Positions 32,957 through 63,561 of a stretch of DNA of 64,000 bases are shown in pieces. The stretch is taken from assembly GCF_003573545.1 (NCBI RefSeq), contig NZ_QWET01000021.1, positions 17,719 through 81,718 on the forward strand, read 5' to 3'. Each line of letters starts with the position of its first letter. The first letter of the stretch is position 1. The notes beneath the pieces were generated by a model that was given only the letters and a program-made list of their open reading frames with translations, did no database searches and had not been told where the DNA came from. The DNA is from Mariniphaga sediminis (GTDB lineage: Bacteria > Bacteroidota > Bacteroidia > Bacteroidales > Prolixibacteraceae). Made by a program: the position numbers and the translations under genes.

Positions 32957-33023
32957 CAAAGTTACTTCTGCTCAATTCAAAAGAGTTACATAATTGATGT
33001 TTTAATTTACATCATTCACACAT
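32957..33023 (-). promoter_or_regulatory. Motif promoter 1 (cupin operon)
   Basis: On the minus strand: ATGTGTGAATGATGTAA (33023-33007), 11 bp, AATTATGTAA (32995-32986), 21 bp, -7 box TAACTTTG (32964-32957). It drives the cupin gene 25 bp on. Confidence 0.8.
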
Positions 33024-33072
33024 TTTGAAAAATGGTAACCAGTATTTTAGTTTTATTAAATACCTGAAGGGT

Positions 33073-33089
33073 TTAGATTATTCACACAT
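33073..33089 (-). promoter_or_regulatory. Decayed motif half-site
   Basis: ATGTGTGAATAATCTAA on the minus strand, fused to the AraC-gene remnant as in the intact copy at 36.3 kb. The second half-site is degenerate and no -7 box is seen. Confidence 0.5.
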
Positions 33090-33226
33090 CTTCAGGTGTC
33101 TCGCGGCGTTTGTTTTTTTTGCTATTTGAAATGAATGGGAGGTAGTCCGGTATATTTTTAAAACTGATTTGAGAGATGAGTCACACTGCTGTAGTGCATT
33201 TATACAAACTTCTGAGATGAAGTTTA
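33082..33226 (-). pseudogene. Remnant of the 3' end of an HMA-AraC regulator gene
   Basis: About 145 bp align by eye with the 3' end of the AraC-type gene at 36329-36889. The shared features include the terminal residues RRETPEDV-stop (RRDTLEDV in the intact gene), IPDYLP in place of TGLTPTH, and the downstream half-site overlapping the stop codon. The frame upstream is interrupted. It shows that a regulator-plus-promoter block was duplicated and then lost. Confidence 0.7.
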
Positions 33227-33232
33227 TGCAGT

Positions 33233-34222
33233 TTATAATCTATCGAATGCTGTAAATATTTTACGTTGATGACCGGATAAAATTTTCGCAAAATTGTTAA
33301 TATCTGAACGATATAAACAATAGCGTATTTTTGTGTACGGATTCAAGCTTTGCTTTATCTCTTTTTCTATTGAATTGGCAATGGTAAGATAATTTTGGAT
33401 TGCTTCATTTAATTGACCTTCTGTAAAACTATTTCTCAATTGCAATATTTCCTGAACAAAACCATCCACCTTAAATTCAACAAAATTATAGGCGGGAAAA
33501 TATTTTAAGGCAATAAATAAAAACCGAAAAACATCCAATGATTTATTTGTTTCTATTCTGTCACCTTTTTTTAGACGATCACTAATTTTTTTTTCGGCGT
33601 GAAATATTTCATTTTTTATGTTTGAGAATTCGTCATCCGCTATTTCAAACAATGCTGATAAGCGATTTATCCGGCGCTTAAGTGATTGAGGAATACTTTT
33701 TTTGTATTTAATTTTATGATCTAAAACACTCCACGCATCCTGAATCACTGTACGAATCTGGAGTTCAACTTTAATGCCTTTAAAATTATGCGCATCAGGG
33801 ACACCATCCAGTTTGCTTTTCAGAATCAGTTGTAAATGCAAACTTTTATATCCGAATTTGTCATCTGTTTTTTCCAACTGACTGCTTTTATCTGTAGTTT
33901 CAATTTCAGTAAAGTATCTTTTAAGTCCCCGCCTTATTTGATTCACTTCTTCATTGTAAAAACACACAGCCCTTATTCCAATCAGGTCAGTAAGACAATC
34001 GCTGATTTTTGTGATATCATCATCCGGTTTCAGCAAAGGCAGGTACTTTCTCTCAAATTTGCTGATGCATTCATTAAAGCTTTTAGTTCTGCCATTGACT
34101 GTTTCCACTTTGGGAATAGAAGAAATTACGCGGCAGAAAAATTTTACAGATGCGTTATGAAAGTCCAGTTTTTGATCGTACCAGATTTTAAATTCATTGA
34201 TTTTTTTATCAAGCTCATTCAT
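33233..34222 (-). CDS. Small alarmone synthetase-like protein (RelA/SpoT synthetase domain)
   Basis: A 329-aa protein with a ppGpp-synthetase domain and no HD hydrolase or TGS/ACT domains. Seen are LTDLIGIRAVCFYNEEVNQI, the G-loop FGYKSLHLQL and VELQIRTVIQDAWSVLDHKIKYKK. A helical C-terminal extension (about 205-329) exceeds ordinary SAS length. It would pyrophosphorylate GDP/GTP from ATP. It follows a truncated desaturase and the radical SAM gene on the same strand, so motif promoter 3 may make alarmone synthesis part of the stress regulon. Confidence 0.88.
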   Translation of the reverse strand: MNELDKKINEFKIWYDQKLDFHNASVKFFCRVISSIPKVETVNGRTKSFNECISKFERKYLPLLKPDDDITKISDCLTDLIGIRAVCFYNEEVNQIRRGLKRYFTEIETTDKSSQLEKTDDKFGYKSLHLQLILKSKLDGVPDAHNFKGIKVELQIRTVIQDAWSVLDHKIKYKKSIPQSLKRRINRLSALFEIADDEFSNIKNEIFHAEKKISDRLKKGDRIETNKSLDVFRFLFIALKYFPAYNFVEFKVDGFVQEILQLRNSFTEGQLNEAIQNYLTIANSIEKEIKQSLNPYTKIRYCLYRSDINNFAKILSGHQRKIFTAFDRL

Positions 34223-34233
34223 CTAAACCTCCA

Positions 34234-34674: not shown

Positions 34675-34682
34675 TTGATAAT

Positions 34683-36182
34683 TTAATATTTATGCTTTTT
34701 TTGTCTGAGTCCGTAAATGGTTCTGAAATGGTATCCGTAAACCGTGTATGTAACTGCATCAACCATTAGTTTTGGTTTGTTGAAAAGGATCCAAATCATA
34801 AATTTCCAGTATTCGGTTCTTCCCTTACTGAGAAAACCAATAACAAAAACCGATTTTAGAAAAGCCATCAGCAGGTTAAATTTTATTCTACTTTGTCCTT
34901 TAGCCAACCGGTTGTAATTCAGTAATAACCGCCTAACCCTTTGGTAATAGGGCTTTACCGAATAAATATTGGTGATTATTCTTTTATAACCTTCCTGAAG
35001 CTCATTGTAATCCATTTTGGGAATAAAATTCATTGATGAATCAGTATTATTCCCTGTGGCTTCAATGGTTAATCTGTTTTCTGCTTCTAACTGTTTGTAT
35101 AGTTTAGTGTTTTTAGGTGCATTCAATAATCCAACCATGGCCGAAACAATTCCACTTTTCTGAATAAAATCGATTTGGCGCTGAAAAACAGACGGTGTAT
35201 CGCTGTCGAAGCCAACAATAAAACCACCTGAAACCTGAATTCCAGCCTGTTGTATCTTTTTAACGCTTTGAATAAGATCCCTGTTTTTGTTCTGCACTTT
35301 ATTGCATGCCTGAAGAGATAATTCATCGGGTGTTTCTATGCCAATAAAAGCAGCATTAAAACCGGCATCAATCAATTGCGACATAAGCTCTTTATCATCC
35401 GCAAGATTTATTGAACTCTGGATGCTAAAATTAAAGGGGTATTTGTGACTTTGCATCCATTTCTTCATTTCCGGGAGCAGGTTCTTTTTTATTTCCTTTA
35501 TATTCCCGATAAAATTATCGTCAACAATTGAAACTGCCCCGCGCCAATGAATGGTATTATACAAGAAATCCAGTTCGCGTATGATCTGGGCCGTATTTTT
35601 CATTCTCATTTTATGCCCCAATAGTGATGTAATTTCACAAAAATTGCAGTTATACGGACAGCCGCGTGTAACCTGAATATTCATAGTAGCATAATCTTTA
35701 ACCGACAACAAATGGAAATCGGGAACCGGTGTTAATGAAAGGTCAGCATATTCATCCGTAGCATAAATCCGTTGCGGTTGTCCTGCATTTAAATCAGCCA
35801 GGAAAAAGGGCATGGTTATCTCTGCTTCATTCAAAATAAAGTAATCAACTTCCGGATAATTCTGATGTTCCTGTGTAAAAAGCGGGCCTCCAGCAACTAT
35901 TTTTTTGTTCCATTTTTTACTTTCTTCAATTACCTTGTTTACCGATTCTTTTTGAATATACATGGCGCTGATAAAAACATAATCAGCCCACTGAACATCA
36001 CTTGTCCGAAGTGTGGTTATATTCAAATCCACCAGTCTTTTCTCCCACGTATCTGGCAGCATTGCCGACACAGTAATTAAACCAAGTGGGGGTACTGCAG
36101 CTTTTTTAGAGATAAATTTCAAGGCATGGGTAAAACTCCAGAAAGAGTCGGGACATTTCGGATAGACCAATAATACTTTCAT
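34683..36182 (-). CDS. B12-binding radical SAM protein (DUF4070/HpnP-like), intact copy
   Basis: A 499-aa enzyme. It has an N-terminal cobalamin-binding Rossmann domain (MKVLLVYPKCPDSFWSFTHAL ... PPLGLITVSAMLP), a radical SAM core with cluster motif CPYNCNFC (three Cys), and a C-terminal DUF4070-like region (MNFIPKMDYNELQEGYKRI). Hopanoid methylases and other lipid or small-molecule C-methyltransferases share this layout. The neighbouring desaturase remnant suggests membrane-lipid modification, but this is inference. It starts 86 bp after motif promoter 3. A second copy at 61.7-63.2 kb is frameshifted. Confidence 0.88.
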   Translation of the reverse strand: MKVLLVYPKCPDSFWSFTHALKFISKKAAVPPLGLITVSAMLPDTWEKRLVDLNITTLRTSDVQWADYVFISAMYIQKESVNKVIEESKKWNKKIVAGGPLFTQEHQNYPEVDYFILNEAEITMPFFLADLNAGQPQRIYATDEYADLSLTPVPDFHLLSVKDYATMNIQVTRGCPYNCNFCEITSLLGHKMRMKNTAQIIRELDFLYNTIHWRGAVSIVDDNFIGNIKEIKKNLLPEMKKWMQSHKYPFNFSIQSSINLADDKELMSQLIDAGFNAAFIGIETPDELSLQACNKVQNKNRDLIQSVKKIQQAGIQVSGGFIVGFDSDTPSVFQRQIDFIQKSGIVSAMVGLLNAPKNTKLYKQLEAENRLTIEATGNNTDSSMNFIPKMDYNELQEGYKRIITNIYSVKPYYQRVRRLLLNYNRLAKGQSRIKFNLLMAFLKSVFVIGFLSKGRTEYWKFMIWILFNKPKLMVDAVTYTVYGYHFRTIYGLRQKKHKY

Positions 36183-36268: not shown

Positions 36269-36336
36269 TAAATTTCGTGATTAAGGTTGAGGAATGTGTT
36301 ACACAATTCTGAAGAATATTTACATTATTCACACAT
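36269..36336 (-). promoter_or_regulatory. Motif promoter 3 (radical SAM - RelA/SpoT operon)
   Basis: Minus strand: ATGTGTGAATAATGTAA (36336-36320), N11, AATTGTGTAA (36308-36299), N22, GAAATTTA (36276-36269). The TGA stop codon of the upstream regulator gene lies inside the first element. Confidence 0.78.
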
Positions 36337-36889
36337 CTTCAAGGGTATCACGGCGTTTGTTTTTGAGCATTTTAAAATGGGTAGGAGTTAATCCGGTATA
36401 TTTTTTAAACTGGTTTGAAAGATGGGCAACACTACTGTAATGCATTTTGTAAGCGATTTCAGAAAGATTAAGTTCATCATAAACAATGAGTTCTTTTACT
36501 TTTTCAATTTTATGGGTCAGGTAATATTTTTCAATAGTAATACCTTTCACTTCCGAAAAAAGATTGGCAAGGTAAGTGTAATCGTAATTAAGTTTTTCAC
36601 TCAGGTAATCAGAAAGGTTTACCTTAATCTGTTCCTCGGTGTAATGCACCAGTTCGATAATTGCACTTTTTACTTTCTCAACCAGAATGCTTTTTTTATC
36701 ATCCATTAATAGTAGCCCTGTTTTTCTTAATGCCAGACCCAACTGTTTTAGCTGTTCCCTTTCCACATTACCTATAATATCAGCTTCCCCTATTTTCACA
36801 TAAGTATATGGCAGCCCAATCTTTTTCAATTCAGCTTTAACTACCATCTGGCAGCGAATGCAAACCATATTTTTAATATATAACTTCAA
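36329..36889 (-). CDS. Short regulator: HMA-like N-terminus plus AraC-type HTH
   Basis: A 186-aa protein. Residues 1-70 resemble a heavy-metal-associated ferredoxin-like domain with C-x-x-C in NMVCIRCQMVV. Residues ~85-180 are an AraC/XylS double HTH with LSEIAYKMHYSSVAHLSNQFKKYTGLTPTHFK. It lacks the usual large AraC effector domain. The paralogue at 49935 is about half identical over the HTH. It is a prime candidate for binding the 21-bp direct repeats found at 15 places. No copy of the motif precedes its own start. Whether the Cys pair senses metal or redox state is unknown. Confidence 0.88.
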   Translation of the reverse strand: MKLYIKNMVCIRCQMVVKAELKKIGLPYTYVKIGEADIIGNVEREQLKQLGLALRKTGLLLMDDKKSILVEKVKSAIIELVHYTEEQIKVNLSDYLSEKLNYDYTYLANLFSEVKGITIEKYYLTHKIEKVKELIVYDELNLSEIAYKMHYSSVAHLSNQFKKYTGLTPTHFKMLKNKRRDTLEDV

Positions 36890-37013: not shown

Positions 37014-37406
37014 TTACTCTTTATCGGGAGTGTTAAAAAAGTCTTTCACAAAGGCTTTTTGTTGATTATCGGTCATATTATCTGCAGGTTGAACAGAAAT
37101 TTTTATTTTTTCAAATTTGCGGTTACTTTGTAACACGTTGAATAATTCGGATTTGGCATCAGTGGGTCCAAAAAGGAGTACTTCACTGTAATCGTTGATA
37201 ATGTAACTTAATTTTTTGTAAAAATCCGCATATTGATTTTGCTCTTTATTGTGCATCAGGCTCTCATCCAATCTCAGATTTTCGACTTGGTCAGGGAAGG
37301 CCGGAATTGATTCCAGCGTTTTTGATATTACCGTGTCATTTAATAATTCAAATATATTGGCAGTTGAATGATCCATCCATATTCCTAACCGTTTTACTGA
37401 TTTCAT
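37014..37406 (-). CDS. Protein of unknown function (130 aa), end of the stress operon
   Basis: A 130-aa alpha/beta protein opening RLGIWMDHSTANIFELLNDTV and with SEVLLFGPTDAKSELFNVL. This pattern (a strand with W-x-D-H, then a 'LFGP' strand) recalls eRF1-like or host-attachment-type small proteins in bacterial stress operons, but I cannot name a family with confidence. It is the last gene of the run started by motif promoter 4. Confidence 0.65.
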   Translation of the reverse strand: MKSVKRLGIWMDHSTANIFELLNDTVISKTLESIPAFPDQVENLRLDESLMHNKEQNQYADFYKKLSYIINDYSEVLLFGPTDAKSELFNVLQSNRKFEKIKISVQPADNMTDNQQKAFVKDFFNTPDKE

Positions 37407-38952: not shown

Positions 38953-39150
38953 TTACGAAGTATACTCCAATGAGCCAATTTCATCCATCAGTTCTTTTTT
39001 TGTTTTACCTAATTTGGATGAAATCATTTGTATCAGGTCTTCTCCCGAAACGCGTCCCCAATACATATCAGCATCGGTAAGCTCAGGATACTTATTTTTA
39101 AGCTTTTCCTTTATTCTTCCCCATTCATTCATGTCAAATTTTGTTTCCAT
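38953..39150 (-). CDS. CsbD-like general stress protein
   Basis: A 65-aa soluble protein: MNEWGRIKEKLKNKYPELTDADMYWG matches the CsbD pattern 'W-x-x-IKGKLKEKWG-LTDDDL'. The tail IQMISSKLGKTKKELMDEI is helical. CsbD proteins are general-stress markers of unknown mechanism. Second gene behind motif promoter 4. Confidence 0.85.
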   Translation of the reverse strand: METKFDMNEWGRIKEKLKNKYPELTDADMYWGRVSGEDLIQMISSKLGKTKKELMDEIGSLEYTS

Positions 39151-39396: not shown

Positions 39397-39464
39397 TAAA
39401 GTTACTTTGAAAAGGCACGGAAAGTGTTACATAATTCTAAATAAGAGTTACATCATTCACACAT
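39397..39464 (-). promoter_or_regulatory. Motif promoter 4 (lmo0937/CsbD/SPFH/UspA operon)
   Basis: Minus strand: ATGTGTGAATGATGTAA (39464-39448), N11, AATTATGTAA (39436-39427), N22, TAACTTTA (39404-39397). Confidence 0.82.
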
Positions 39465-42233: not shown

Positions 42234-42781
42234 TTATGAATCTCTCCACTCATTTAACAGTGCTCGCAGGTTAACATTGGCATAGGTGAAATCATAATCC
42301 GACAAAATATAAGGTATAATCAATTCGTCGTTATGAATCATTGAACCGCATGAATAAACTACGTTGGGCACATACCCTTCCCGCGCTCTTCGGAGTTGGG
42401 CATTATAGTTGTACCATCATAAGCCGTATAAGTTGCATAATAACTTATTTTACCGTCATCATCAACAAATTTTACAAAACCTGCATCCTCAACTCCATTT
42501 TTTTCATTTGCCGAAATCGGAAAAATTACCCGCTCTGAAGTGTTGGTATCCAACGAAAATTCCAATTCGTAATGCGACGAAGTCAGCCAGATAATCTGAT
42601 TAAACAACACTTCTTTCTCCGATGTAAGATGTAATGATTTTCTTGCTTTTCTCTTACAATCGCACAGTTCGCCGTAGGTAAATGTATTGTTTAACTCGTT
42701 GGTAATTAAACTGAAAAGGATAATCGAATGAAAATCTTTCATCTCGTTCAGATTGCTTTTAATGGAAGCTTTTTCATACAT
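42234..42781 (-). pseudogene. GH130 mannoside phosphorylase remnant
   Basis: Two parts of a GH130 gene in different frames. The first (42781-42359) reads HYELEFSLDTNTSERVIFPISANEKNGVEDAGFVKFVDDD ... YATYTAYDGTTIMP. The second, one frame over, reads REGYVPNVVYSCGSMIHNDELIIPYILSDYDFTYANVNLRALLNE and stops at 42234. The central blades carrying much of the active site are missing and the N-terminus is not intact. It probably once worked with the glycosyltransferase at 29.8 kb. Confidence 0.8.
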
Positions 42782-42860: not shown

Positions 42861-42898
42861 ATGTCAGATTCAACCCAGGAGTTATATCATTCACACAT
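42861..42898 (-). promoter_or_regulatory. Degenerate motif site 5 (before the GH130 remnant)
   Basis: Minus strand: ATGTGTGAATGATATAA (42898-42882), N11, AATCTGACAT (42870-42861). The second half-site and -7 region have decayed, matching the decayed gene behind it. Confidence 0.55.
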
Positions 42899-42923
42899 TT
42901 CTAAAAAAAAAGAAATTTCAATA

Positions 42924-43490
42924 TCAGTACTTATTATTCTGCAAACTGAACTTTGAAATATTGACCACCGACAAAAGACATTTTTGATCCTCTTCTGTAA
43001 CTACTCCCTCCATATAAACAGGACATAATAGTCTATTATCATAACCCAGCAAAACTTCACACGATTCTTTTGCATTAGTGTTGTAGACTTTTCTGAAAAA
43101 TTTATTAAAAACAGGTTTTGAATCTTCTGATACGAATAGCTTAAAATTGCTGTCTATTAAACTAAAACGTCTGTCTCCGAGCATTTCAGCACCTGTAAAG
43201 TTCAGCTCGCAAATGGTTCCATCTGAATCGAGTGTAAAATAACCTACAAGAGACAATTCAAACACCATGATGTATTTTTTCAGGGCCGATTCTGCTGTTT
43301 CATATGCCTGACGCAGCTCCTCATTCTGCATTTCCAATTCTATCTGATGCACCTGCAATTCATGCAGGAGTTTTTTCATATCGGTTTCTTCCTTCGAAAT
43401 TTTCTCCTTTTGTTGTTTTTCATTGAGTAGTTCTTCCGCTTTTTTGCGCAGCATTTTGGCATTCAAAAAATTCATTTCATCGCTCATCAT
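42924..43490 (-). CDS. PAS-domain protein with coiled coil
   Basis: A 188-aa protein: an N-terminal coiled coil (LRKKAEELLNEKQQKEKISKEE ... HQIELEMQNEELRQAYETAE) joined to one PAS domain (IMVFELSLVGYFTLDSDGTICELNFTGAEMLG). No output domain is present. Its ATG overlaps the stop of the CheB-CheR gene (ATGA), so the two are translationally coupled and probably form a signalling pair. Confidence 0.85.
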   Translation of the reverse strand: MMSDEMNFLNAKMLRKKAEELLNEKQQKEKISKEETDMKKLLHELQVHQIELEMQNEELRQAYETAESALKKYIMVFELSLVGYFTLDSDGTICELNFTGAEMLGDRRFSLIDSNFKLFVSEDSKPVFNKFFRKVYNTNAKESCEVLLGYDNRLLCPVYMEGVVTEEDQKCLLSVVNISKFSLQNNKY

Positions 43491-46414
43491 GACTTCAATT
43501 TTTTTGTAGTAATTATAACTCCCATTGGCAAATCCTGATCATTGGAAAGTACATTAACCTTCCATTCAATTTCCATTTCAAGACCACCTGCTCCAATTGC
43601 CCTCATTTTTATTTTATTTTCACCTGCATGTTTCAGCAGTTGGTTCATTTGTTGTTCGGTTTTATGCCGCATAGGCTCAGTAACAAACAATTCCAGATAA
43701 TTTTTATTGATAACATCATCCTGTATTACTCCAAAAACGTCTTCAGCAGCTGAATTAAACTCCAGTATTTTCCAATCGGGAGATAATTTAATGATCACAT
43801 CTGATGATGAATGGAGCAGCAGGCGATTGAACTGGTGGTTTTCGTTTAATTTCTCTTCCACCAGTTTCAATTCTGAAATATTGATAAATGTGATAACCAG
43901 GCCGTCAATCCGGTCGTCGAAGGTACGGTATGGCATAATCCGGATGGAAAACCACCGCCCGTCTTTGGTTGGAATTTGTTTTTCAATAAAAATGAGTGTC
44001 CTCAGAACCTCGCGTGCATCTTCGGGCAGGTCGGGGTAAATAAGTTGTGAAACCTGGTCGGTAAACGGGCGGCCAATATCGCTTTTAATCAGTTTGAAAA
44101 TTTTTGTAGCCTGATTGGTGTACCGACGGATATTGAGTTCCTTGTCGAGAAACAAAGTAGCAATGTCGGTGCTGTTGAGCAGGTTTTTCATGTCGTTGTT
44201 TACCCGCGAATAGTCTTCCACCTTTGCCATCAATTCGGCATTTACCGTTTGAAGTTCTTCATTCAGGCTTTGCATTTCTTCCTTTGAAGTAGTGAGTTCT
44301 TCGTTGGTTGATTGTAATTCTTCATTGGTTGATTGCAATTCTTCGTTGGTCGATTTCAACTCTTCCTGTGAAGTTTGCATCTCTTCCAGAATATTTTGCA
44401 TCTCTTCGCGGGTATGTTGTAACTCATGCTCTAATTCGGTTTCTCTGACACTGGCTACTGCTTTTTTTCCTTTTTTCTCCGGTTGTTTGGTTTCAGCAGC
44501 TTGCGGAATATCTGTAAAAATTATCATCAGTTTGCCATATAAAGGTTCCGGTTTATGAATCCACTGAATGTTTACATTTAAAGTGATTGTACCTCCGTTT
44601 GTTCCAATTTTAACATGGTGCAAGGCAGTGGCTTCTTTGTTCATTACCGCTTTGCGAAACGCGATGGCAAAATCGTTTTGAAAACCCGGACGCAGCATGG
44701 CAAAAATATTCAGGTTTGCCTTTCCCACTGCAGGCTCCAGGTATTTTCCCGTTCGTCCGCTAATGTACAGTATATCGCCGTTTTCGTTTACCAAAACTCC
44801 GGCAGGCGAAAATTGCTGGAGCAGAAGTTGATCGGCAAGTGTTTGTATATTCATAATTGGTTTGTCAGATTCTGTATTTTCAATATTACCCGTTTTAGTC
44901 CGGGTAAATGAAGAAGGAAAATCGAATAATTGCGGGTTTAGGTTGGCATCAGATCGTTTAAAAATTTTCAGGGGTGAATCAACCTGCTCAAAAAGATGGC
45001 TTTGTACACCCAGTGTTTCTGAAGTTCCAAGCATTAAAAACCCTTGCTGGTTAAGGCTGTAGTAAAATAGTCCGAGCAATTTTCGCTGCAATTCCGGATC
45101 CATATATATGAGCAGGTTGCGGCACGAGATAATATCTAAATTGGTAAAAGGCGGATGCATGATAATGTTGTGGTGCGCAAATACAACCATTTCCCTGATT
45201 TCCGTATTAATGCGGTACATGTCATCGACTTTGGTAAAAAAACGGCTCAGCCTTTTGGCCGACACATCGTTGGTAATATTTTCCGGAAACAACCCCTTGC
45301 GCGCTGTATCAATCGCATCGCTATCCAAATCGGAAGCAAAAATTTGTAATGATATCCCTGCGTTCGGATTGACTTTTTCCAGTGTTTCCTTAAATACGAT
45401 GGCCAGCGAATAGGCTTCTTCGCCGGTAGAACACCCGGGTACCCAGGCCCTCAATTGCGAATTGTGTTTCAACTTATCAATCAGCCCGGGCAATACTTTT
45501 TCTTTTAGTTTTTCCCAAACCGGTGCATCGCGAAAAAAATTGGTTACACCAATCATCAGTTCTTTGAACAGGATATGCACTTCCTTTGGATTTTCCTGTA
45601 AAAAGTGGACATACGAAAATATTCCATCAATTTTATGGACACTCATTCGCCTTTCGATACGCCGGTAAACTGTATTTCTTTTATACAGCGAGAAATCATT
45701 CCCGGTATGTGTTCGCAATAAAATAATAATTTTTTCAAGGGCGCTTTTATCCTTTACTTCACTATTTAGGTTTGATTTAACTACAGGAATATGTTTAAGG
45801 AAATGAATAAGTTCCGAAGGTAATTTTTCCGGTGGAGCCACTATGTCAATCAGTCCGGAGTCGATGGCATTTCGGGGCATACTGTCAAACTTTGCGGTAT
45901 CAGGTTCCTGCACCAGTGCAATTCCGTTTTTTTCTTTTATTGCCCGAATTCCTATGCTTCCGTCGGAGCCCATCCCCGAAAGGACAATTCCAACAGCATT
46001 TTCCTTTTGGTCATCGGCCAGCGAACGCAAGAAAAAATCAACGGGCAGGCGCAATCCACGGGCTTCAACTGGGTCAAACAGGTGAAGCGCACCTTTGAAA
46101 ATGGACATGCTTTTATTTGGTGGAATAACATAAACGCAGTTTGGTTTTACTTTCATCAGGTCTTCCACCTGAAAAACCTTCATATTGGAAACCCGTTGAA
46201 GTAATTCCGGAAGCATCCCTTTTTGGGTCGGATCCAAATGCTGGACAACCACGTAGGCCATTCCGCTTTTGTCAGGTACATTTTTCAGAAATTGCTCCAA
46301 TGCTTCCAGTCCACCGGCTGATGCGCCGATACCCACAATTGGAATTTTTTGGGCTTTTACTCCTGAACTCTTTTCTTTTGGTGAGTCAGTTGGTTTTGTT
46401 TTTTTACGTTTCAA
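43487..46414 (-). CDS. CheB-CheR-PAS fusion signalling protein without kinase
   Basis: A 975-aa protein. The CheB-type methylesterase domain has GASAGGLEALE, VVVQHLDPTQKGML and VLSGMGSDGSIG (Ser-His-Asp triad). The CheR methyltransferase has TNFFRD and WVPGCSTGEEAYSLA. A long coiled coil is built on repeats of LQSTNEELQSTNEEL, and PAS domains follow (SDIATLFLDKELNIRRYTNQATKIF; SSSDVIIKLSPDWKILEF). The usual C-terminal histidine kinase is absent. No chemoreceptor genes are nearby, so its role is probably non-chemotactic. Encoded with the PAS protein downstream. Confidence 0.92.
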   Translation of the reverse strand: MKRKKTKPTDSPKEKSSGVKAQKIPIVGIGASAGGLEALEQFLKNVPDKSGMAYVVVQHLDPTQKGMLPELLQRVSNMKVFQVEDLMKVKPNCVYVIPPNKSMSIFKGALHLFDPVEARGLRLPVDFFLRSLADDQKENAVGIVLSGMGSDGSIGIRAIKEKNGIALVQEPDTAKFDSMPRNAIDSGLIDIVAPPEKLPSELIHFLKHIPVVKSNLNSEVKDKSALEKIIILLRTHTGNDFSLYKRNTVYRRIERRMSVHKIDGIFSYVHFLQENPKEVHILFKELMIGVTNFFRDAPVWEKLKEKVLPGLIDKLKHNSQLRAWVPGCSTGEEAYSLAIVFKETLEKVNPNAGISLQIFASDLDSDAIDTARKGLFPENITNDVSAKRLSRFFTKVDDMYRINTEIREMVVFAHHNIIMHPPFTNLDIISCRNLLIYMDPELQRKLLGLFYYSLNQQGFLMLGTSETLGVQSHLFEQVDSPLKIFKRSDANLNPQLFDFPSSFTRTKTGNIENTESDKPIMNIQTLADQLLLQQFSPAGVLVNENGDILYISGRTGKYLEPAVGKANLNIFAMLRPGFQNDFAIAFRKAVMNKEATALHHVKIGTNGGTITLNVNIQWIHKPEPLYGKLMIIFTDIPQAAETKQPEKKGKKAVASVRETELEHELQHTREEMQNILEEMQTSQEELKSTNEELQSTNEELQSTNEELTTSKEEMQSLNEELQTVNAELMAKVEDYSRVNNDMKNLLNSTDIATLFLDKELNIRRYTNQATKIFKLIKSDIGRPFTDQVSQLIYPDLPEDAREVLRTLIFIEKQIPTKDGRWFSIRIMPYRTFDDRIDGLVITFINISELKLVEEKLNENHQFNRLLLHSSSDVIIKLSPDWKILEFNSAAEDVFGVIQDDVINKNYLELFVTEPMRHKTEQQMNQLLKHAGENKIKMRAIGAGGLEMEIEWKVNVLSNDQDLPMGVIITTKKLKS

Positions 46415-46753: not shown

Positions 46754-46821
46754 CTAAAATAGAAAACCGCGTTTACGGTTTTGTTACATTACACCGGAGA
46801 AAATTTACATAATTCCCACTT
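46754..46821 (-). promoter_or_regulatory. Motif promoter 6 (55-aa membrane protein)
   Basis: Minus strand: AAGTGGGAATTATGTAA (46821-46805), N11, TGTAATGTAA (46793-46784), N22, TATTTTAG (46761-46754). More diverged than the other copies but with identical spacing. Confidence 0.68.
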
Positions 46822-50556: not shown

Positions 50557-50624
50557 GTAAAATTAATCTATTCGTATTTTTAAATGTTACACAATTCTTT
50601 TAAAATTTTACATCATTCCCACAT
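50557..50624 (-). promoter_or_regulatory. Motif promoter 9 (second HMA-AraC gene)
   Basis: Minus strand: ATGTGGGAATGATGTAA (50624-50608), N11, AATTGTGTAA (50596-50587), N22, AATTTTAC (50564-50557). Confidence 0.78.
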
Positions 50625-51517: not shown

Positions 51518-51585
51518 TAAAAATAGGCGATTATGCATGTTTATTACTTACACAATTTTCTCAGGGATTTACATCATTCCCACAT
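51518..51585 (-). promoter_or_regulatory. Motif promoter 10 (ECF sigma factor)
   Basis: Minus strand: ATGTGGGAATGATGTAA (51585-51569), N11, AATTGTGTAA (51557-51548), N22, TATTTTTA (51525-51518). Confidence 0.82.
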
Positions 51586-52504: not shown

Positions 52505-52572
52505 GTAAGGTGAGAACATTTGGAATACAAAACATTACACAATTTCAGATAAGAGTTACATCATTCACACAT
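52505..52572 (-). promoter_or_regulatory. Motif promoter 11 (OmpA coiled-coil lipoprotein)
   Basis: Minus strand: ATGTGTGAATGATGTAA (52572-52556), N11, AATTGTGTAA (52544-52535), N22, CACCTTAC (52512-52505), a weaker -7 box. Confidence 0.78.
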
Positions 52573-54688: not shown

Positions 54689-55633
54689 CTACTTATTTCC
54701 CTCCGGCACTATCGTATCTGTCTCCATTCGCATTTTTTCCTCTTCCTTGGCCTGCCGCCTGTAATATCTCCTGAAAAGGAAATTGTGTTTGAGCGCTTCC
54801 ATATTTTCGTTCAGTCCGATACTGCTTTCTTTTAGATTAATAATCGTTTCATCAATATTATTAACAATAGACGTATCCTTGAGCAACATTCCAATAGCCC
54901 CTTCGCCATTGTTTATTTTTGTCATAATTTCGCCGAGTTCGTTGGAAGCAACTTCCGTTTTTGCGGCAGTTTTCTGTAAGCTCTCCATAAAGGCAAACAC
55001 ATTTTCTTTTGTGATTTCTATGGTTTCATCCAACCCTTCCGAACTTTTTCTGAAGTTTTCGATGGTCAGATTCACATTTTCCGCAATGGTTGAATCCTGG
55101 ATTAACCTTCCCAGCATTCCTTGTCCGTTATTAATGTTTGTCATTATTTCGGCAAGTTGTTTTGTTATAACTTCGGCGCTCTCGGCACTGGTTTTTAAAC
55201 TTTTCATAATCTCGTCGGTTTCAAGTGGTTCTTTCGACAAAATATGTTCTCCGTCTTCTGCCATTGATGAGTTAGTGCTTCCCTGTGTAATCGTAATAAT
55301 CCGGTCGCCGATAATTCCTTCGGAGCCAATACTTGCATAACTGTCGGCTTTTATAAACTGCTGCACATCTTTTCTGATAAGCAGGTCGACCTGCACGGTT
55401 GAATCGTTAATAATTTTAATGTTATCAACAATGCCGACATCAATTCCCGAGAACCGTATATTATTTCCAACTTCCAGGCCGCTTACATTATAGAAATTGG
55501 TTGTAATTTTGAACACAGGATTAAATAAATTTTGTTGCTTGCCAATGATGAAAATGGCCACAACAAAAATGGCAATTCCTACTACAATAAAAATTCCTAA
55601 ACGTGCCTTAAACTGTGGTGTGTAATTTTCCAT
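54689..55633 (-). CDS. MCE-domain lipid-transport protein (MlaD-like)
   Basis: A 314-aa protein with one N-terminal membrane helix (FIVVGIAIFVVAIFIIG) and an MCE domain (VFKITTNFYNVSGLEVGNNIRFSGIDVGIVDNIKI ... GSEGIIGDRIITI). After it come three repeats of a helical unit with 'GEIMTKINNGEGAIGMLLKD'-type sequence, a probable substrate tunnel. It shares an operon with the MlaF- and MlaE-like genes (3-bp gap) and moves phospholipids across the periplasm. Confidence 0.93.
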   Translation of the reverse strand: MENYTPQFKARLGIFIVVGIAIFVVAIFIIGKQQNLFNPVFKITTNFYNVSGLEVGNNIRFSGIDVGIVDNIKIINDSTVQVDLLIRKDVQQFIKADSYASIGSEGIIGDRIITITQGSTNSSMAEDGEHILSKEPLETDEIMKSLKTSAESAEVITKQLAEIMTNINNGQGMLGRLIQDSTIAENVNLTIENFRKSSEGLDETIEITKENVFAFMESLQKTAAKTEVASNELGEIMTKINNGEGAIGMLLKDTSIVNNIDETIINLKESSIGLNENMEALKHNFLFRRYYRRQAKEEEKMRMETDTIVPEGNK

Positions 55634-55636
55634 TTT

Positions 55637-56416
55637 TTATGCTTTTTGTTTGAAAAAAGATTGGATTACCTCATCAGTTGAATTTTCAAAATCATCAATG
55701 TTGCCTTCCATGTAAATCTCGCCGTCTTTTAACATGATAATTCTGTCGGCAGTGGCGCGGGCACATTCAATATCGTGCGTGATGATGATAGATGATGTAA
55801 GGTATTTTTTTTGAACATCATTAATTAGTGCGCTTATTCCACCAGAAGTTACCGGGTCGAGTCCGGTGGTTGGTTCATCGTAGAGCATAATCATCGGGTC
55901 TACTACTATGGTGCGTGCCAGGCTTGCCCGTTTCCGCATTCCGCCCGAAAGTTCCGATGGCATTTTATGCAACGTGTCGGCCAAACCTACATGCTCCAAA
56001 GTTTCCTCAATTTTTTTATCCCTTTCTTTTTTTGAAAGCTTCTTTTTTATTCTGCGTAAAGGAAATTCAAGGTTTTCTTTAATGGTCATTGAATCGTACA
56101 GCGCACCGCTCTGAAAAAGGAAACCAATTTTTTCCCTCAACCGGGCCAGTTTTTTGCTTTTCAATTCACTCACATTTTCGCCCAGAACCATAATAGTTCC
56201 CTGGTCGGGGTTGAGCAAACGGACGATGCATTTAATAAGAACCGATTTTCCGGAGCCTGATTTACCGAGTACAACCAGGTTTTCGCCATCATAAAGTTTT
56301 AACGACAGTTTTTTTAATACCTGCATATCATCAAAACCTTTACTGAGGTTATTAATTTCAATAACCATTTTGGGCTTCTTTGTACTTTCCGGAGTAACCT
56401 TTTTATTTTTAATCAT
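55637..56416 (-). CDS. ABC transporter ATPase (MlaF-like)
   Basis: A 259-aa ATP-binding subunit: Walker A GKSGSGKSVLIKC, Q-loop GFLFQSGALYDSMTIKENLEF (the phrase typical of MlaF), signature LSGGMRKRASLART, Walker B MIMLYDEPTTGLDP and the H-loop His in IITHDIECAR. It powers the MlaE permease. Confidence 0.95.
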   Translation of the reverse strand: MIKNKKVTPESTKKPKMVIEINNLSKGFDDMQVLKKLSLKLYDGENLVVLGKSGSGKSVLIKCIVRLLNPDQGTIMVLGENVSELKSKKLARLREKIGFLFQSGALYDSMTIKENLEFPLRRIKKKLSKKERDKKIEETLEHVGLADTLHKMPSELSGGMRKRASLARTIVVDPMIMLYDEPTTGLDPVTSGGISALINDVQKKYLTSSIIITHDIECARATADRIIMLKDGEIYMEGNIDDFENSTDEVIQSFFKQKA

Positions 56417-56427
56417 TTCTTATTTTT

Positions 56428-57276
56428 CTATAAAAGCATATCGGTTATCTGAACAGCAATCAAATCAACAATTATCACAAGCAGGGAAGCAAGTACCACG
56501 GCCGAATTGGCCGCTTTGCCCACGCTTTCCGTGCCGTGCCCTGCAGAATAACCTTTATAACACCCCACAAGCCCGATGACGGCTCCAAAAAAGAATGTTT
56601 TAATTACGGCAGGTAAAAAATCCATAAAATCGACCACCCGGAATGCCTGGTTGAAAAACAAAACAAAAGAGACGCTTCCTTTAATGTTTGCGCCGGCCCA
56701 GCTTCCCAAAATCCCAAGCGCATCGGCATACAAAACCAAAACGGGGATCATCAGCGTGGCGGCCAAAACCCTTGTTACTACCAAAAAACGTATGGGGTGG
56801 GTAGAAGAAACTTCCATGGCATCGATTTGTTCCGACACTTTCATTGAACCCAGCTCGGCCCCAATCCCCGAACCAATTTTCCCGGCACAGATTAATGCGG
56901 TAATAACCGGTCCCATTTCCCGGATAATTGATAAAGATACCATACCGGGAAGCATGGATACGGCTCCGAAATCGACCAAAACCGGCCGCGATTGTATGGT
57001 TAATACCAATCCCATTATGAGGCCTGTTACCGAAATAAGTGGCAAAGTTTTGTACCCTATTTGAAAACACTGGCGCAGGAATTCGTTAAATTCAAAATTC
57101 AGGGAAAAAGTTTCTCTTGTAGTTTTCCAAAGAAATAAAAAGAAATCGCCTATTCCGGAAAAGAATACATTCGCTTCCTTCGTTTTCTCAATAGTTTTCT
57201 CGCTAAGCTTAATAACTTGCTGTTTAACGACAAGGGTGTTTATTGACACTTTTTTAAATGGGGTAAATTTTTTCAC
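56428..57276 (-). CDS. ABC permease (MlaE-like)
   Basis: A 282-aa permease with about five membrane helices: FFLFLWKTTRETF, TGLIMGLVLTIQSRPVLVDFGA, the MlaE signature REMGPVITALICAGKIGSGIGAELGSMKVSEQIDAMEV and GCYKGYSAGHGTESVGKAANSAVV. The GTG at 57276 lies only 4 bp after the -7 box (57288-57281), so the transcript would start at or past it. The GTG at 57249 is a likelier start unless the mRNA is leaderless. It heads the Mla operon. Confidence 0.93.
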   Translation of the reverse strand: MKKFTPFKKVSINTLVVKQQVIKLSEKTIEKTKEANVFFSGIGDFFLFLWKTTRETFSLNFEFNEFLRQCFQIGYKTLPLISVTGLIMGLVLTIQSRPVLVDFGAVSMLPGMVSLSIIREMGPVITALICAGKIGSGIGAELGSMKVSEQIDAMEVSSTHPIRFLVVTRVLAATLMIPVLVLYADALGILGSWAGANIKGSVSFVLFFNQAFRVVDFMDFLPAVIKTFFFGAVIGLVGCYKGYSAGHGTESVGKAANSAVVLASLLVIIVDLIAVQITDMLL

Positions 57277-57280
57277 CTAG

Positions 57281-57348
57281 TAAAGGTAGGGGCGTTTATG
57301 CCTGAAAATTTTACAGTATTTCGGATAAGAGTTACATCATTCACACAT
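57281..57348 (-). promoter_or_regulatory. Motif promoter 12 (Mla operon)
   Basis: Minus strand: ATGTGTGAATGATGTAA (57348-57332), N11, AATACTGTAA (57320-57311), N22, TACCTTTA (57288-57281). Confidence 0.82.
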
Positions 57349-57372: not shown

Positions 57373-58239
57373 TTAACAAACGTATTCTTTAAGTAAACTG
57401 TTGCTATGTGTGCGAACTTTTAATTTTTTCAGCGAATGTTCCTTAACTTGCCTTACTCTTTCATACGATAACCCGAAATCGACGCCTATTTTTTCCAAAG
57501 GTTGGGCAACAATTCCGTTGAGCCCAAAAAACCGGCGTAAAATATTGGCTTCCCTTGAGGACAGCCTGGAAAGCGTCCGTTCAATTTCCTTTTGCAATGA
57601 TTCGGTAATTAAACCTGATACCGGACTATGCGAATTATCGTTCGGTACCAAATCATAACGGTTATTTTCCGCTTCATCGCCAACTGGTTCGTCCATCGAC
57701 ATATTTATGGTTAAGATATACATTGTATCTTCCACAACCTCTGGCTGCAATCCCATCGCTTCAGATAATTCGTCAATGGTTGGTTCGCGAAAATACTCAT
57801 GGCTTAATTGGTTGAACGTTTTTTTCACTTTATTTTTTAACCCGATTTTATTCACCGGAAGCCTAACTATTCTTGAATTTTCGTCGATTGCCTGCAGGAT
57901 TGAATTACGAATCCACCAAACAGCGTAGGAAATGAATTTAAATCCCCGGGTTTTGTCGAAACGTTCGGCTGCTGTTATCAGCCCCAGGTTTCCCTCGTTT
58001 ATCAAATCAGGTAAACTTAATCCCTGGTTTTTGTATTGGTTTGCAACCGAAATAACAAACCGGAGATTGGCTTTTACCAACTCCCCAAATGCGTGCTGGT
58101 CGCCCTCACTAATTCGCCGGGCAAGTTCAATCTCTTTTTCTGTTGTCAGCAGTTTAATTTTGTTAATCTCGCGCAAATATATATCCAGCGCTGTACTATT
58201 GGTAAAATTTATTTGCCGGGAAATTTTCAGGTGTCTCAT
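57373..58239 (-). CDS. RpoD-like (group 1/2) sigma factor
   Basis: A 288-aa sigma-70 factor with the short layout of Bacteroidota RpoD. Region 1.2 is STALDIYLREINKIKLLT, regions 2.1-2.4 FGELVKANLRFVISVANQY, LSLPDLINEGNLGLITAAERFD and FKFISYAVWWIRNSILQAI. Region 3 follows, and region 4 is REANILRRFFGLNGIVAQPLEKIGVDFGLSYERVRQVKEHSLKKLK. It departs from the housekeeping sequence at many places, so it is probably an alternative stationary or stress factor. Promoter 13 lies 18 bp upstream. Confidence 0.9.
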   Translation of the reverse strand: MRHLKISRQINFTNSTALDIYLREINKIKLLTTEKEIELARRISEGDQHAFGELVKANLRFVISVANQYKNQGLSLPDLINEGNLGLITAAERFDKTRGFKFISYAVWWIRNSILQAIDENSRIVRLPVNKIGLKNKVKKTFNQLSHEYFREPTIDELSEAMGLQPEVVEDTMYILTINMSMDEPVGDEAENNRYDLVPNDNSHSPVSGLITESLQKEIERTLSRLSSREANILRRFFGLNGIVAQPLEKIGVDFGLSYERVRQVKEHSLKKLKVRTHSNSLLKEYVC

Positions 58240-58257: not shown

Positions 58258-58324
58258 CAAATGTCTCCATTTTTCCAAGAAACTATTTACACTATTTTAT
58301 AAATGATTTACACAATTCACACAT
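58258..58324 (-). promoter_or_regulatory. Motif promoter 13 (RpoD-like sigma factor)
   Basis: Minus strand: ATGTGTGAATTGTGTAA (58324-58308), N11, AATAGTGTAA (58296-58287), N21, GACATTTG (58265-58258). Here the distal element equals the usual proximal half-site, which shows the two are versions of one half-site. Confidence 0.78.
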
Positions 58325-60460: not shown

Positions 60461-60739
60461 CTAATTCTCAACAGTTTTTGTTTCCTTTTCTGCCTCATCG
60501 GGTTTCCCCATTTTTTTATCAGCATAGTCGGAAACATCTGCTTTCACCTTTTCAAATTTTTCGGTGACTACTTCAAGCAAATCGTTTAACTTTTCCTTTA
60601 CTGCATCTGAGTAGTCTTCCCCCTTTTTCAAAATTCTTTTACGGGTTTTCGATCCTTTTGCAGGAGCAAATAAAATTCCTGCCAATGCGCCGGCGGCTGC
60701 CCCGGCCAATACGCCCAACAAAACTTTTCCTGAACTCAT
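60461..60739 (-). CDS. YtxH-domain protein
   Basis: A 92-aa protein with a glycine/alanine zipper membrane segment (KVLLGVLAGAAAGALAGILFAPAKGSKTRKRIL) then a charged helix to the C-terminus. It is closely similar to the YtxH protein at 26167. Promoter 14 lies 37 bp upstream. Probably heads the YtxH/holin-like/132-aa/AI-2E run, if transcription passes the foldback. Confidence 0.87.
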   Translation of the reverse strand: MSSGKVLLGVLAGAAAGALAGILFAPAKGSKTRKRILKKGEDYSDAVKEKLNDLLEVVTEKFEKVKADVSDYADKKMGKPDEAEKETKTVEN

Positions 60740-60776: not shown

Positions 60777-60844
60777 CAAAGGTCGGCCATCCTGCACCGA
60801 ATGGCGTTACACAATTTTGCAAATGATTTACATCATTCACACGT
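60777..60844 (-). promoter_or_regulatory. Motif promoter 14 (YtxH)
   Basis: Minus strand: ACGTGTGAATGATGTAA (60844-60828), N11, AATTGTGTAA (60816-60807), N22, GACCTTTG (60784-60777). It ends 2 bp from the stop of the M48 gene. Confidence 0.83.
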
Positions 60845-60845: not shown

Positions 60846-61691
60846 TTATTTTGACTGATTGTAATATTTCATGGCTTCGGGCATAAATTGTTTCAGCTTT
60901 CTTATTCTTGTTTCATCGGAGGGGTGAGTGCTTAAAAATTCAGGAGGTTTTGCTCCGCCTGCATTCGACATTCTTTCCCAAAAGGGAATTGCTTCCTGCG
61001 GGTTGTAACCGGCCATGGCTGCAAATATTAATCCATACTGGTCGGCTTCGGTTTCCTGTTGCCGCGACCAGGGTAAAACTGCACCAACCGTGCTACCAAT
61101 GCCATAGGCCTGCATGAACAGATTTTGAGTTTCCTGAGGTTTTTGCGATAGGGCAACCTGCAATGCAACGCCGCCCAATTGTTGAATCATTCCCTGGCTC
61201 ATTCGTTCGCTGCCATGTTTTGCAATGGCATGGGCAATTTCGTGGCCAACGACTATGGCAAGCGCTGTTTCGGTCTGCGTAACGGGCAATAAGCCAGTGT
61301 AAACAACCACTTTTCCTCCGGGCATACACCAGGCATTAACGGCTTTGTCATCTACAGTATTAAACTCCCACTTGTAGCCTTCAATTACCGATTGTTGCCC
61401 CTGGCTATTGTAATATTTTGTGATTGCATTGGAAATACGCGCTCCAACGTGGTCAACCATGGCGGCCTCTTTATTGCCCGGGCTTAACACCTTGTGTTCG
61501 GCCAAAAAAGCACTGTACTGGCTGGTAGCCATTAATTGCAATTCCGATTCGGGGACTAAACTCAACTGGTTGCGGCCGGTTACAAGATTCAGAACACATC
61601 CAGTAAACAAAACAGAACCCAGAACCAGCAAAAGAGGTTTTCTGACCTGAAACCCAACTCGTTTTATCCATTTTTTAGCAAGTGTTTTCAT
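60846..61691 (-). CDS. M48-family metallopeptidase, lipoprotein
   Basis: A 281-aa LoiP/YcaL-like protease. Lipoprotein signal (PLLLVLGSVLFTGC), zinc site HEIAHAIAKH (HExxH), third ligand Glu in QETEADQYGL and the conserved tail FLSTHPSDETRI. It acts in periplasmic protein quality control at the outer membrane. It lies 19 bp after the radical SAM copy on the same strand and probably depends on promoter 15. Confidence 0.94.
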   Translation of the reverse strand: MKTLAKKWIKRVGFQVRKPLLLVLGSVLFTGCVLNLVTGRNQLSLVPESELQLMATSQYSAFLAEHKVLSPGNKEAAMVDHVGARISNAITKYYNSQGQQSVIEGYKWEFNTVDDKAVNAWCMPGGKVVVYTGLLPVTQTETALAIVVGHEIAHAIAKHGSERMSQGMIQQLGGVALQVALSQKPQETQNLFMQAYGIGSTVGAVLPWSRQQETEADQYGLIFAAMAGYNPQEAIPFWERMSNAGGAKPPEFLSTHPSDETRIRKLKQFMPEAMKYYNQSK

Positions 61692-61710
61692 TTCCTTATC
61701 TTATAATTCA

Positions 61711-63203
61711 TTATCTGCTTTTGTTCCTTAACCCATATACCGTGCGGAAGTGATAACCATACACCGCAAAGGTTATGGCATCAATCATTAATCCGGGCTT
61801 TCGAAAGAGTGTCCAAAACAGAAATTTCCAGTACTCGCGGCGGCCACTGTTGGCAAGCCCGATGATAAATACAGATTTAATAAAACCTGCCAGGTAGTTC
61901 AACTGCACTCTTCCTTTTCCGGTTTTCGGACGTTTATAATTGTTTAAACACTGTCGTATTCGCTGATAATAGGGTTTTGGAGAATAGATGCCGGTGATAA
62001 TTTTTTTATACCCGACGAGTAGTTCATGATGATCCATTTTGGGGATAAAATTCATGGATGCGTCTGTGTTATTGCCCGATGATTCAACCGTCAGCCGGTT
62101 TTCGGCTTCAAGTCGTTCATAAAGTTTTGTGTTTTTGGGAGCGTTTAACAGTCCAACCATTGCGGATACAATTCCGCTTTGCTGAATAAAATCAATCTGC
62201 CGCTGAAAAACAGAAGGCGTGTCGCTGTCGAAACCAACAATAAAACCTCCGGATACCTGCATCCCCGCGTTTTGTATTTTTTTTACGCTTAGCAAAAGGT
62301 CCCTGTTTTTATTCTGAATTTTGTGGCATTCATGAAGCGATTTTTCTTCGGGTGTTTCGATGCCGACAAATGTGGAACTAAAACCGGTTTCTACCATCAT
62401 TTGCATCAGTTCCTCATCGTCGGCAAGATTAATGGATGTTTCGGTATTGAATTTGAACGGGTAGTTATGGCTTTGCATCCAGCTTTTCATTGCCGGAAGC
62501 AGGTTGTTTTTTATTTCATGTTTGTTCCCGATAAAATTATCATCAACAATCAGCACCGGGCCACGCCAGTTCAGGTTGTAAAGCGCCTCGAGTTCGTTAA
62601 TGACTTGGATGGGGTTTTCATTCGTACCTTGTGCCCCAAAAGGGCAGTAATTTCGCAAAAATCGCAGGAATACGGGCAACCCCTCGATACCTGAATATTC
62701 ATAAAAGCATAGTCTTTTGCCGATAATAAATGGTAGTCGGGGACAGGGGTTGTAGTCATATCGGCATATTCGCTGGTTTTATAAATACGCTGTGGTGGTT
62801 TTCCCGAAGCCAGATCATGGAGGAACAAAGGCATCGTAATCTCTGCTTCGTTCAGCACAAAATGGTCAATCTGCGAATAATTGTTGTACTCCTGGGTAAA
62901 CAGCGGACCGCCGGCTACAACTTTAACCTTGTTTTTTATACATTCTTCCAGAATTTTATTTACCGATTCTTTCTGAATATACATTGCGCTGATAAAAACA
63001 TAATCGGCCCAGATGATATCACTGATTTGAAGTGATGTAACGTTCAGATCAACAAGCTTTTTATTCCATGTTGGCGGCAACATAGCCGAAATGGTAACCA
63101 AACCCAGGGGTGGCACTGCTGCTTTTTTGGAAATAAACCGCAATACATGCGTGAAACTCCAGAATGATTCAGGATATTTGGGATATACCAATAAAATATT
63201 CAT
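61711..63203 (-). pseudogene. B12-binding radical SAM protein, frameshifted second copy
   Basis: Two overlapping frames together match the intact paralogue at 34683 over its whole length. The first (63203-62571) covers the cobalamin-binding domain and cluster motif CPYSCDFC, up to GHKVRM. The second (from 62679 down) resumes at NPIQVINELEALYNL. The break is at the run GGGGTTTT (62611-62618; AAAACCCC on the coding strand), which needs one more A to restore the frame. The rest is well conserved, so the mutation is recent, a phase-variable slip or a sequencing error. Confidence 0.88.
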
Positions 63204-63257
63204 AATTTTCTTTTTTACAGGTTATAAAAAGTCTTTATGCAGGTCGGAAAAGCCATT

Positions 63258-63467
63258 TTATTTCTTATATCCCTGCCATACAAAAATACCACCAACAGCC
63301 ATTACCGCGATGCCAATAAATGGCGACCACCTGAAATTATGAGGTTTATTGGCTGTAATTTTTAAATCTCCTATTTTAACTACATCCTCTCTGGTGAAGA
63401 AAGAAACAGTAGTAAAAATGGTCAGTAATAATCCGACAATAATCAGTACGATGCCTGTTTTTTTCAT
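63258..63467 (-). CDS. Small two-helix membrane protein (69 aa)
   Basis: MKKTGIVLIIVGLLLTIFTTV starts a first membrane helix; after a polar loop (REDVVKIGDLKITANKPHNF) comes a second (SPFIGIAVMAVGGIFVWQGY). The pattern is shared by small Bacteroidota inner-membrane proteins of unknown role. It starts 26 bp after promoter 15 and precedes the radical SAM copy and the M48 gene. Confidence 0.8.
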   Translation of the reverse strand: MKKTGIVLIIVGLLLTIFTTVSFFTREDVVKIGDLKITANKPHNFRWSPFIGIAVMAVGGIFVWQGYKK

Positions 63468-63493
63468 TCTATATAGTATGAATTAATTCATAA

Positions 63494-63561
63494 GAAAGTT
63501 AAAAATTGAAGGGTGGGTGTTTATTATACAATTCCTAAATAATATTACATAATTCACACAT
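63494..63561 (-). promoter_or_regulatory. Motif promoter 15 (69-aa membrane protein operon)
   Basis: Minus strand: ATGTGTGAATTATGTAA (63561-63545), N11, AATTGTATAA (63533-63524), N22, TAACTTTC (63501-63494). Confidence 0.8.

Follow-up and report, generated by a model that had tools for sequence, protein, structure and literature searches.

A 64,000-nucleotide stretch of the genome of Mariniphaga sediminis (Bacteroidota; contig NZ_QWET01000021.1, positions 17,719 to 81,718; here called the window) carries thirteen copies of a 68-bp unit placed ahead of genes, which an initial annotation of the sequence had described as an activator-dependent promoter unit defining a clustered regulon. Our analysis supports this description, as the unit holds a -7 box at an almost fixed distance and a proximal half-site over the -33 region, and it also provides a candidate for the activator, which the initial annotation had not named: the evidence points to two AraC-type genes of the window, at 36329-36889 and 49935-50480, as the likely regulators of the box. 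With a probability of about 0.82, we consider the unit to be the operator-promoter of a single family of activators, termed here HMA-AraC, with predicted binding and activation via the housekeeping polymerase. An autoregulated HMA-AraC protein would bind 17-bp half-sites that lie in direct orientation 21 bp apart and, once bound, would recruit the housekeeping RNA polymerase to the -7 box, with a metallochaperone-like (HMA-like) N-terminal domain acting as the sensor. Binding by the two proteins of the window, activation and the use of the housekeeping sigma factor are predictions from sequence; what is observed is a module with a defined repeat geometry that is positioned ahead of genes, recurs in Bacteroidota and is linked to HMA-AraC genes.

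The first half-site, RAATKRTGTAACNCTTW (17 bp), recurs in direct orientation at a pitch of 21 bp. When columns 1-17 of a weight matrix of the unit are compared with columns 22-38, they match only at a shift of 21, with a score of 7.65 against -16.1 for the next best among shifts 8-32; the best inverted-repeat score (1.83) sums fewer columns and is not comparable with the direct-repeat score. Outside the searched core, the matrix shows AAATGTGT upstream, CTCTT after half-site 1 and ACACTTT after half-site 2. The -7 region, which formed no part of the search pattern, appears at one distance. The 80 named loci contain 83 exact-match boxes, and in those with 45 bases downstream, position +24 is A in 94%, positions +27 and +28 are TT in 98-99% and position +30 is G in 68%. 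These boxes thus present the Bacteroidota housekeeping -7 box TAnnTTTG as a YACCTTTG-like box at a nearly fixed distance. The box consensus has no TTTG at the place of the usual -33 element, where the proximal half-site and ACACTTT are found instead, as the initial annotation had proposed. According to a study of Flavobacterium psychrophilum, the -7 box TAnnTTTG of sigma-A lies at -12 to -5 (PMC9723704), and if the -7 box of the unit is set at these positions, half-site 1 comes to lie at about -66 to -50 and half-site 2 at about -45 to -29. By analogy, this layout would be that of a dimeric AraC-type activator, with the near half-site over the -35/-33 region, and we infer a promoter function for the unit. 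An RNA element was also considered as its identity and was rejected: in window positions 28000-64000, Rfam identified two tRNAs and no other RNA element.

The window was scanned for the 27 fixed bases of the unit (17+10) with up to three mismatches, using 100 shuffles as a control. This search recovers 12 of the 13 copies reported earlier and gives no match in the shuffles; the remaining copy (46754-46821, minus strand) is more diverged and absent at this threshold, is clear in the sequence and scores 36.4 bits on the weight matrix, so that all thirteen are present. The matrix was trained on 58 sites found with a 21-base core in the window and in loci L203-L219, and the window scores are therefore partly in-sample; in six first-order shuffles of 810 kb, the background amounted to 0.17 sites per set at a cut-off of 8 bits, and no site exceeded 12 bits. 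No site above 14 bits is found in window positions 1-33,000, in agreement with the earlier report of none in the first 32.9 kb. The 11-base gap within the unit, described as invariant, is indeed the same in 13 of 13 copies. The gap to the -7 box takes the two values originally given, 22 and 21, but their counts do not stand, as best-match placing yields 22 in nine copies and 21 in four (-7 boxes at 33017, 50618, 58318 and an ambiguous one at 52566) rather than eleven and two. All copies end before a start codon and follow gene orientation, the distance from the end of the -7 box to the start being 4-86 bp, as had been noted, with starts taken from listed open reading frames (ORFs) for ten genes and from the first plausible ATG for three small ones. 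A genome-wide search returned 15 core sites with up to three mismatches in the host genome (5.83 Mb, 70 contigs), compared to none for the reversed pattern. Twelve of these sites lie in the window, two on contig C33 and one weak site on C70, and the term "clustered" is thus right for the host genome. Because the window stops at the end of its contig, the cluster may continue beyond it.

The unit occurs in many Bacteroidota, and the regulon that it marks would therefore not be local to M. sediminis. The exact pattern was found at no fewer than 116 loci of a named genome collection; among the matches listed, 115 are from Bacteroidota, mostly Marinilabiliales and Bacteroidales with single records from Mucilaginibacter, Chitinophaga, Fluviicola, Flavobacterium and Saprospiraceae, and the remaining one is assigned to Kapaibacterium, without phylum rank. 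With up to two mismatches, the core is present in 18 of 60 related genomes (one reversed-control match in total) and in 10 of 198 genomes of a phylum sample (two control matches), the host genome being included in both counts. A matrix scan of 156 regions (the 116 exact-match loci, 39 stretches and the window) with a cut-off of 30 bits detected 321 distinct sites. These are mostly intergenic, with 29 of 321 lying more than half inside an ORF of at least 100 amino acids (aa) as compared to 778 of 963 random places, and the -7 box lies a median of 37 bp from the ORF start. Of the sites, 92% have an ORF that begins on the same strand within 350 bp, and so do 69% of random places, a loose control that also counts starts inside ORFs; a stricter test of same-strand gene starts, in 75 of the 116 exact-match loci, gave 174 of 230 sites against 163 of 690 random places. 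The thirteen near-identical copies in 31 kb, together with duplicated remnants nearby, could suggest a mobile or selfish repeat, similar to a miniature inverted-repeat transposable element, that spreads upstream of genes. We regard this as very improbable: the unit has neither conserved flanks nor terminal inverted repeats, its orientation follows that of the genes, the association with ORF starts (by the loose test) is of the kind just described, and a register fixed to a stop codon, as reported below, is not expected of such an element. The mobile repeat was on these grounds not retained. A 41-bp portion of box 2 had no match in plasmid records.

The operator-promoter reading calls for a DNA-binding protein that accompanies the unit, and the window encodes two HMA-AraC proteins of about 185-186 aa, candidate regulator 1 (36329-36889, minus strand, 186 aa) and candidate regulator 2 (49935-50480, minus strand, listed at 181 aa), which share the same architecture. 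In both, PF12833 and PF00165 score above cut-off, corresponding to a C-terminal AraC-type double helix-turn-helix. An AlphaFold2 model of the HMA-AraC protein (mean pLDDT 88.8, pTM 0.79) shows a ferredoxin-like N-terminal domain, with predicted secondary structure E2-6 H11-24 E28-32 E35-38 H44-55. This domain resembles metallochaperones, GolB and Atx1 among them, in structure comparisons (2roe, 2qif (CopZ), 4y2i and 2xmv; TM by target 0.60-0.68, with weak E-values of 0.04-0.2), and its profile matches HMA domains of CopA (1p6t, E 7e-4); the C-terminus matches the folds of MarA, SoxS and AraC domains (best E 1e-4). Within the first 70 residues of a 24-row alignment, Cys13 is invariant and R12 nearly so. 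The motif at the first cysteine is CxxC in 27 of 64 genes, SxxC in 36 and TxxC in one; CxxC is kept in candidate regulator 1, and candidate regulator 2 has TxxC. At least 8,000 proteins match the HMA-AraC profile at E 1e-10, and a third copy in the host genome is located on contig C10.

Boxes and HMA-AraC genes are linked well beyond chance. In 40 regions, a same-strand box is present within 300 bp of 28 of 40 HMA-AraC genes, as compared to a mean of 2.8 and a maximum of 10 in 5,000 random placements of the same boxes. Twenty regions taken for their AraC-type gene lie outside the matrix training set, and there 14 of 24 genes have a box (mean 1.1 and maximum 7 in 20,000 placements); these regions, from the phylum and relatives lists, were hand-chosen among best-scoring genes, and five of their genomes contain a two-mismatch match somewhere. 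In the 15 regions from genomes with no such match, 11 of 19 HMA-AraC genes have a box within 300 bp. For 15 HMA-AraC genes, the box lies in one fixed register over the gene's own stop codon: core position 1 falls on the second base of that codon, and the in-frame triplets GTG TGA thereby double as GTGTGA of the box. When 301 registers were compared for 64 genes (61 evaluable, many from loci chosen because they hold a box), the stop-codon register ranked first and scored positively in 26. Six other HMA-AraC genes follow a second pattern, with the box 84-91 bp upstream of their start; in the window, this distance is 138 bp for 49935-50480. Boxes and protein also co-occur: among the relatives, with the host genome left out and protein presence called at E 1e-20, two or more boxes are found in 13 of 30 genomes with the protein and in 0 of 29 without it (Fisher test, p 5e-5), and at least one box in 15 of 30 and 2 of 29, respectively. 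Box score and AraC identity are correlated (rho 0.60, n=18, p 0.009), a relation that is confounded by relatedness and is not used here as proof.

Several observations weigh against this assignment. The -7 box TAnnTTTR of the initial annotation is exact in seven of the thirteen window copies and departed from in six. Neither window protein matches the Pfam HMA family (PF00403) at E 1e-3. For twelve of the 40 HMA-AraC genes, including the C10 copy of the host genome, no box within 300 bp exceeds 14 bits, and several of these twelve show weak matches in the stop-codon register or in the 84-89-bp register. The Fisher tests of co-occurrence overstate independence because the genomes are related. 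In the phylum sample, again with the host genome left out, a box with up to two mismatches is found in only 8 of the 95 genomes that have the protein and in 1 of the 102 that lack it (p 0.016). The fraction of 8 in 95 is low and speaks against a simple model of one box for all HMA-AraC proteins. In that sample, at most 17 candidates were scored per larger genome, so that some HMA-AraC proteins may have been missed there. Drift of the box and paralogues, seen at the AraC-type genes only, suggest an explanation for the low fraction.

It is also conceivable that the box belongs to another regulator, either an unrelated activator or one of two sigma factors of the window (the ECF factor at 50966-51475 or the sigma-70 protein at 57373-58239), and that the AraC-type genes are merely members of the regulon. 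Both sigma genes carry the box, and many regulon members share a single cluster, as this explanation would have it. However, the ECF factor was not found at E 1e-30 in G010 and G047, genomes with four and six boxes, and genomes that have it do not differ clearly from those that lack it in how often they hold two or more boxes (11 of 44 versus 2 of 15, p 0.48). Relatives of the sigma-70 protein occur in 59 of 60 genomes, too widely for it to discriminate. Furthermore, the conserved repeat, reaching to about -66, exceeds the length of a sigma site, and the stop-codon register is tied to genes of the AraC type. We therefore consider a different regulator unlikely. As cognate regulators, the two sigma factors are not supported, the ECF factor because it does not track the box and the sigma-70 protein because its relatives are nearly universal.

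The putative targets of the HMA-AraC activator in the window are described in order of position; boxes 5 and 6 lie on the plus strand and the others on the minus strand. Box 1 (32957-33023; one mismatch, 60.7 bits) precedes a cupin-like gene (32581-32931; below the Pfam cut-off), and box 2 (36269-36336; 64.5 bits) overlaps the stop codon of candidate regulator 1 and precedes a B12-binding radical SAM gene (34683-36182). Box 3 (39397-39464; 74.1 bits) stands before the gene for a 51-aa membrane peptide, followed by 38953-39150, Band_7 and Usp genes. Box 4 (46754-46821; 36.4 bits), the most diverged of the thirteen, is located before a 55-aa ORF and a CheB-CheR-PAS gene (43487-46414). Box 5 (46996-47063; 65.8 bits) precedes a bacterial sugar transferase gene (47086-47697), and box 6 (47797-47864; 67.2 bits) a 57-aa ORF and an OmpA/Gly-zipper gene (48105-48776). 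Box 7 (50557-50624; 53.4 bits) precedes candidate regulator 2, for which autoregulation is predicted; box 8 (51518-51585; 44.9 bits) the ECF-type sigma factor gene; box 9 (52505-52572; 64.9 bits) a second OmpA gene (51655-52482); and box 10 (57281-57348; 64.8 bits) genes of the MlaE-MlaF-MlaD type (54689-57276). Box 11 (58258-58324; three mismatches, 42.1 bits) lies before the sigma-70 family gene, box 12 (60777-60844; 66.0 bits) before a YtxH gene (60461-60739) and box 13 (63494-63561; 46.6 bits) before the gene for a 69-aa membrane protein (63258-63467). Pfam also detects AI-2E and RelA_SpoT in the cluster, the gene list of which includes some members that are not directly downstream of a box. 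The box-carrying sigma-70 family protein (288 aa) has a best relative that is only 62% identical among 59 related genomes, and may be a genome-specific extra sigma factor.

Elsewhere, the genes directly behind boxes encode CsbD-like proteins (20 sites in 18 loci; Pfam E 5e-5, below cut-off), ice-binding-like proteins (15 sites in 12 loci; E 8e-41), ferritin-like proteins (three sites; E 1e-17), which we read as Dps-like, as well as DUF6600, OmpA-type, MlaE and cupin proteins, and at 14 sites the HMA-AraC gene itself; cluster names were taken from representatives, and 58 of the 92 clusters are single proteins. This combination of envelope, desiccation/osmotic, alarmone, sigma-factor and iron-storage-type genes suggests a stress response. 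Envelope proteins are frequent among the targets (OmpA, Mla, sugar transferase, 55-aa membrane peptides), which would also suit a regulon that is an envelope or surface programme and not a stress response, under an HMA-AraC protein that binds the box but acts as a repressor or activates few targets. A role in stress is indicated instead by the genes of the CsbD-like, YtxH, Usp, RelA/SpoT, ferritin-like and ice-binding kinds, and a near half-site upstream of the -7 box, in place of the -33 element, is in an activator rather than a repressor position. We hold this alternative to be doubtful.

The nature of the signal is approached through the relatives of the candidate activator. In a quick tree of the 64 HMA-AraC genes, with SH-aLRT support only and no bootstrap, eight CxxC genes form one group at SH-aLRT 99. 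Near seven of them, at a distance of no more than 5 kb, a homologue of copper-type ATPases or HMA-MauE proteins is encoded, and the eighth is the C10 copy of the host genome; Pfam analysis of the genes behind five of the seven identified three P-type ATPases with HMA and two HMA-MauE proteins. Two SxxC genes on L217 are also near a copper-type ATPase or HMA-MauE homologue. In L193, L194, L195, L196, L201 and L202, the HMA-AraC genes precede HMA-MauE or P-type ATPase genes, and a diverged 21-bp repeat box lies over or near the HMA-AraC stop codon. An HMA-AraC protein encoded beside such genes is a possible copper regulator of Bacteroidota. As the sister clade adjoins copper ATPases, metal or thiol sensing is the first hypothesis for the signal of the box-linked proteins; speculatively, a change in copper or thiols would be sensed by the conserved cysteine. 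In a wider scenario, Bacteroidota would have a phylum-level stress regulon that would be run by a metallochaperone-fused AraC activator and not by an alternative sigma factor, would respond to copper or thiols, and would derive from a copper-efflux regulator or share an origin with it; the operator lying inside the regulator's own stop codon, regulator and regulon promoter would therefore travel together. We offer this wider scenario tentatively, at somewhat less than even odds.

Comparison with known systems shows both shared and distinct traits. At araBAD of E. coli, the AraC half-sites I1 and I2 are likewise spaced at 21 bp, the nearer one occupying the -35 region, and AraC at this promoter and the class II MarA/SoxS promoters alike have direct-repeat half-sites about two helical turns apart and the promoter-near site at -35. 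HMA-AraC shares with these proteins, by fold similarity, an AraC-type DNA-binding domain at the C-terminus, and differs from AraC in having an HMA-like N-terminus in place of the cupin-like sugar-binding domain; as a system, it differs from AraC/MarA/SoxS in its Bacteroidota -7 box, its many targets per genome and an operator that overlaps the regulator's own stop codon. With the HMA domains of CopA, CopZ, Atx1 and GolB it has in common the predicted beta-alpha-beta-beta-alpha fold and, in 27 of 64 genes, an MxCxxC-like motif; unlike them, it is fused to a DNA-binding domain, the first cysteine is replaced by Ser in 36 of 64 genes and by Thr in one, and the window proteins escape Pfam HMA detection. 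The target kinds CsbD, YtxH, ferritin-like and further sigma factors overlap those generally known for the sigma-B regulon of Bacillus and for the RpoS and EcfG/PhyR regulons, which differ in that the unit places an activator site over a housekeeping-type -7 box rather than an alternative sigma promoter. The Flavobacterium psychrophilum motifs SM1-SM6 (PMC9723704) have the same -7 box at the same positions, and in the available part of that article none of the six is described as a 21-bp direct repeat and the main text does not contain "AraC". Among open-licence articles, we found no description of the box or of an HMA-AraC regulator, nor one of a general stress regulon of Bacteroidota under a named master activator; literature searches with the sequence strings of the unit gave only unrelated papers among the matches listed.

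Other features of the window concern duplications and fragments around the cluster. Both decayed copies reported initially, at 33073 and 42861, are present in the sequence. The first belongs to a decayed 3' end of an AraC-type gene with its stop-codon box (33072-33201, minus strand; blastn 81.5% over 130 bp to 36319-36447, E 1.5e-32), and the second (42861-42928, end approximate, minus strand; below 14 bits) precedes a 140-aa ORF at 42359-42781 that resembles an internal segment of a 477-aa gene located on contig C33 (L003 1586-3019), which adjoins the two boxes of that contig; 42359-42781 reads as a duplicated, truncated remnant with a decayed box. The B12-radical SAM gene has a second version at 61711-63203, behind box 13 and the small gene that follows this box; it is split into two ORFs in different frames and shares 71% DNA identity over 1468 bp with the intact gene at 34683-36182. 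The 133-aa ORF at 34234-34635 matches only the first third of a fatty acid desaturase model and is probably a gene fragment. A 130-aa protein encoded at 37014-37406, with no Pfam family, has an N-terminal start (GVWMDHHEAHLMEF) similar to that of the protein after the HMA-AraC gene of L188.

Bacteroidota are abundant in guts, soils and seas, and the unit provides this phylum with a candidate stress-response regulon to test. The 68-bp signature, in combination with the candidate regulator, would allow target prediction in uncultured genomes and may serve as an inducible promoter part for the phylum. An operator located over the stop codon of its regulator, and found there in distant families, would keep the two linked in an unusual manner.

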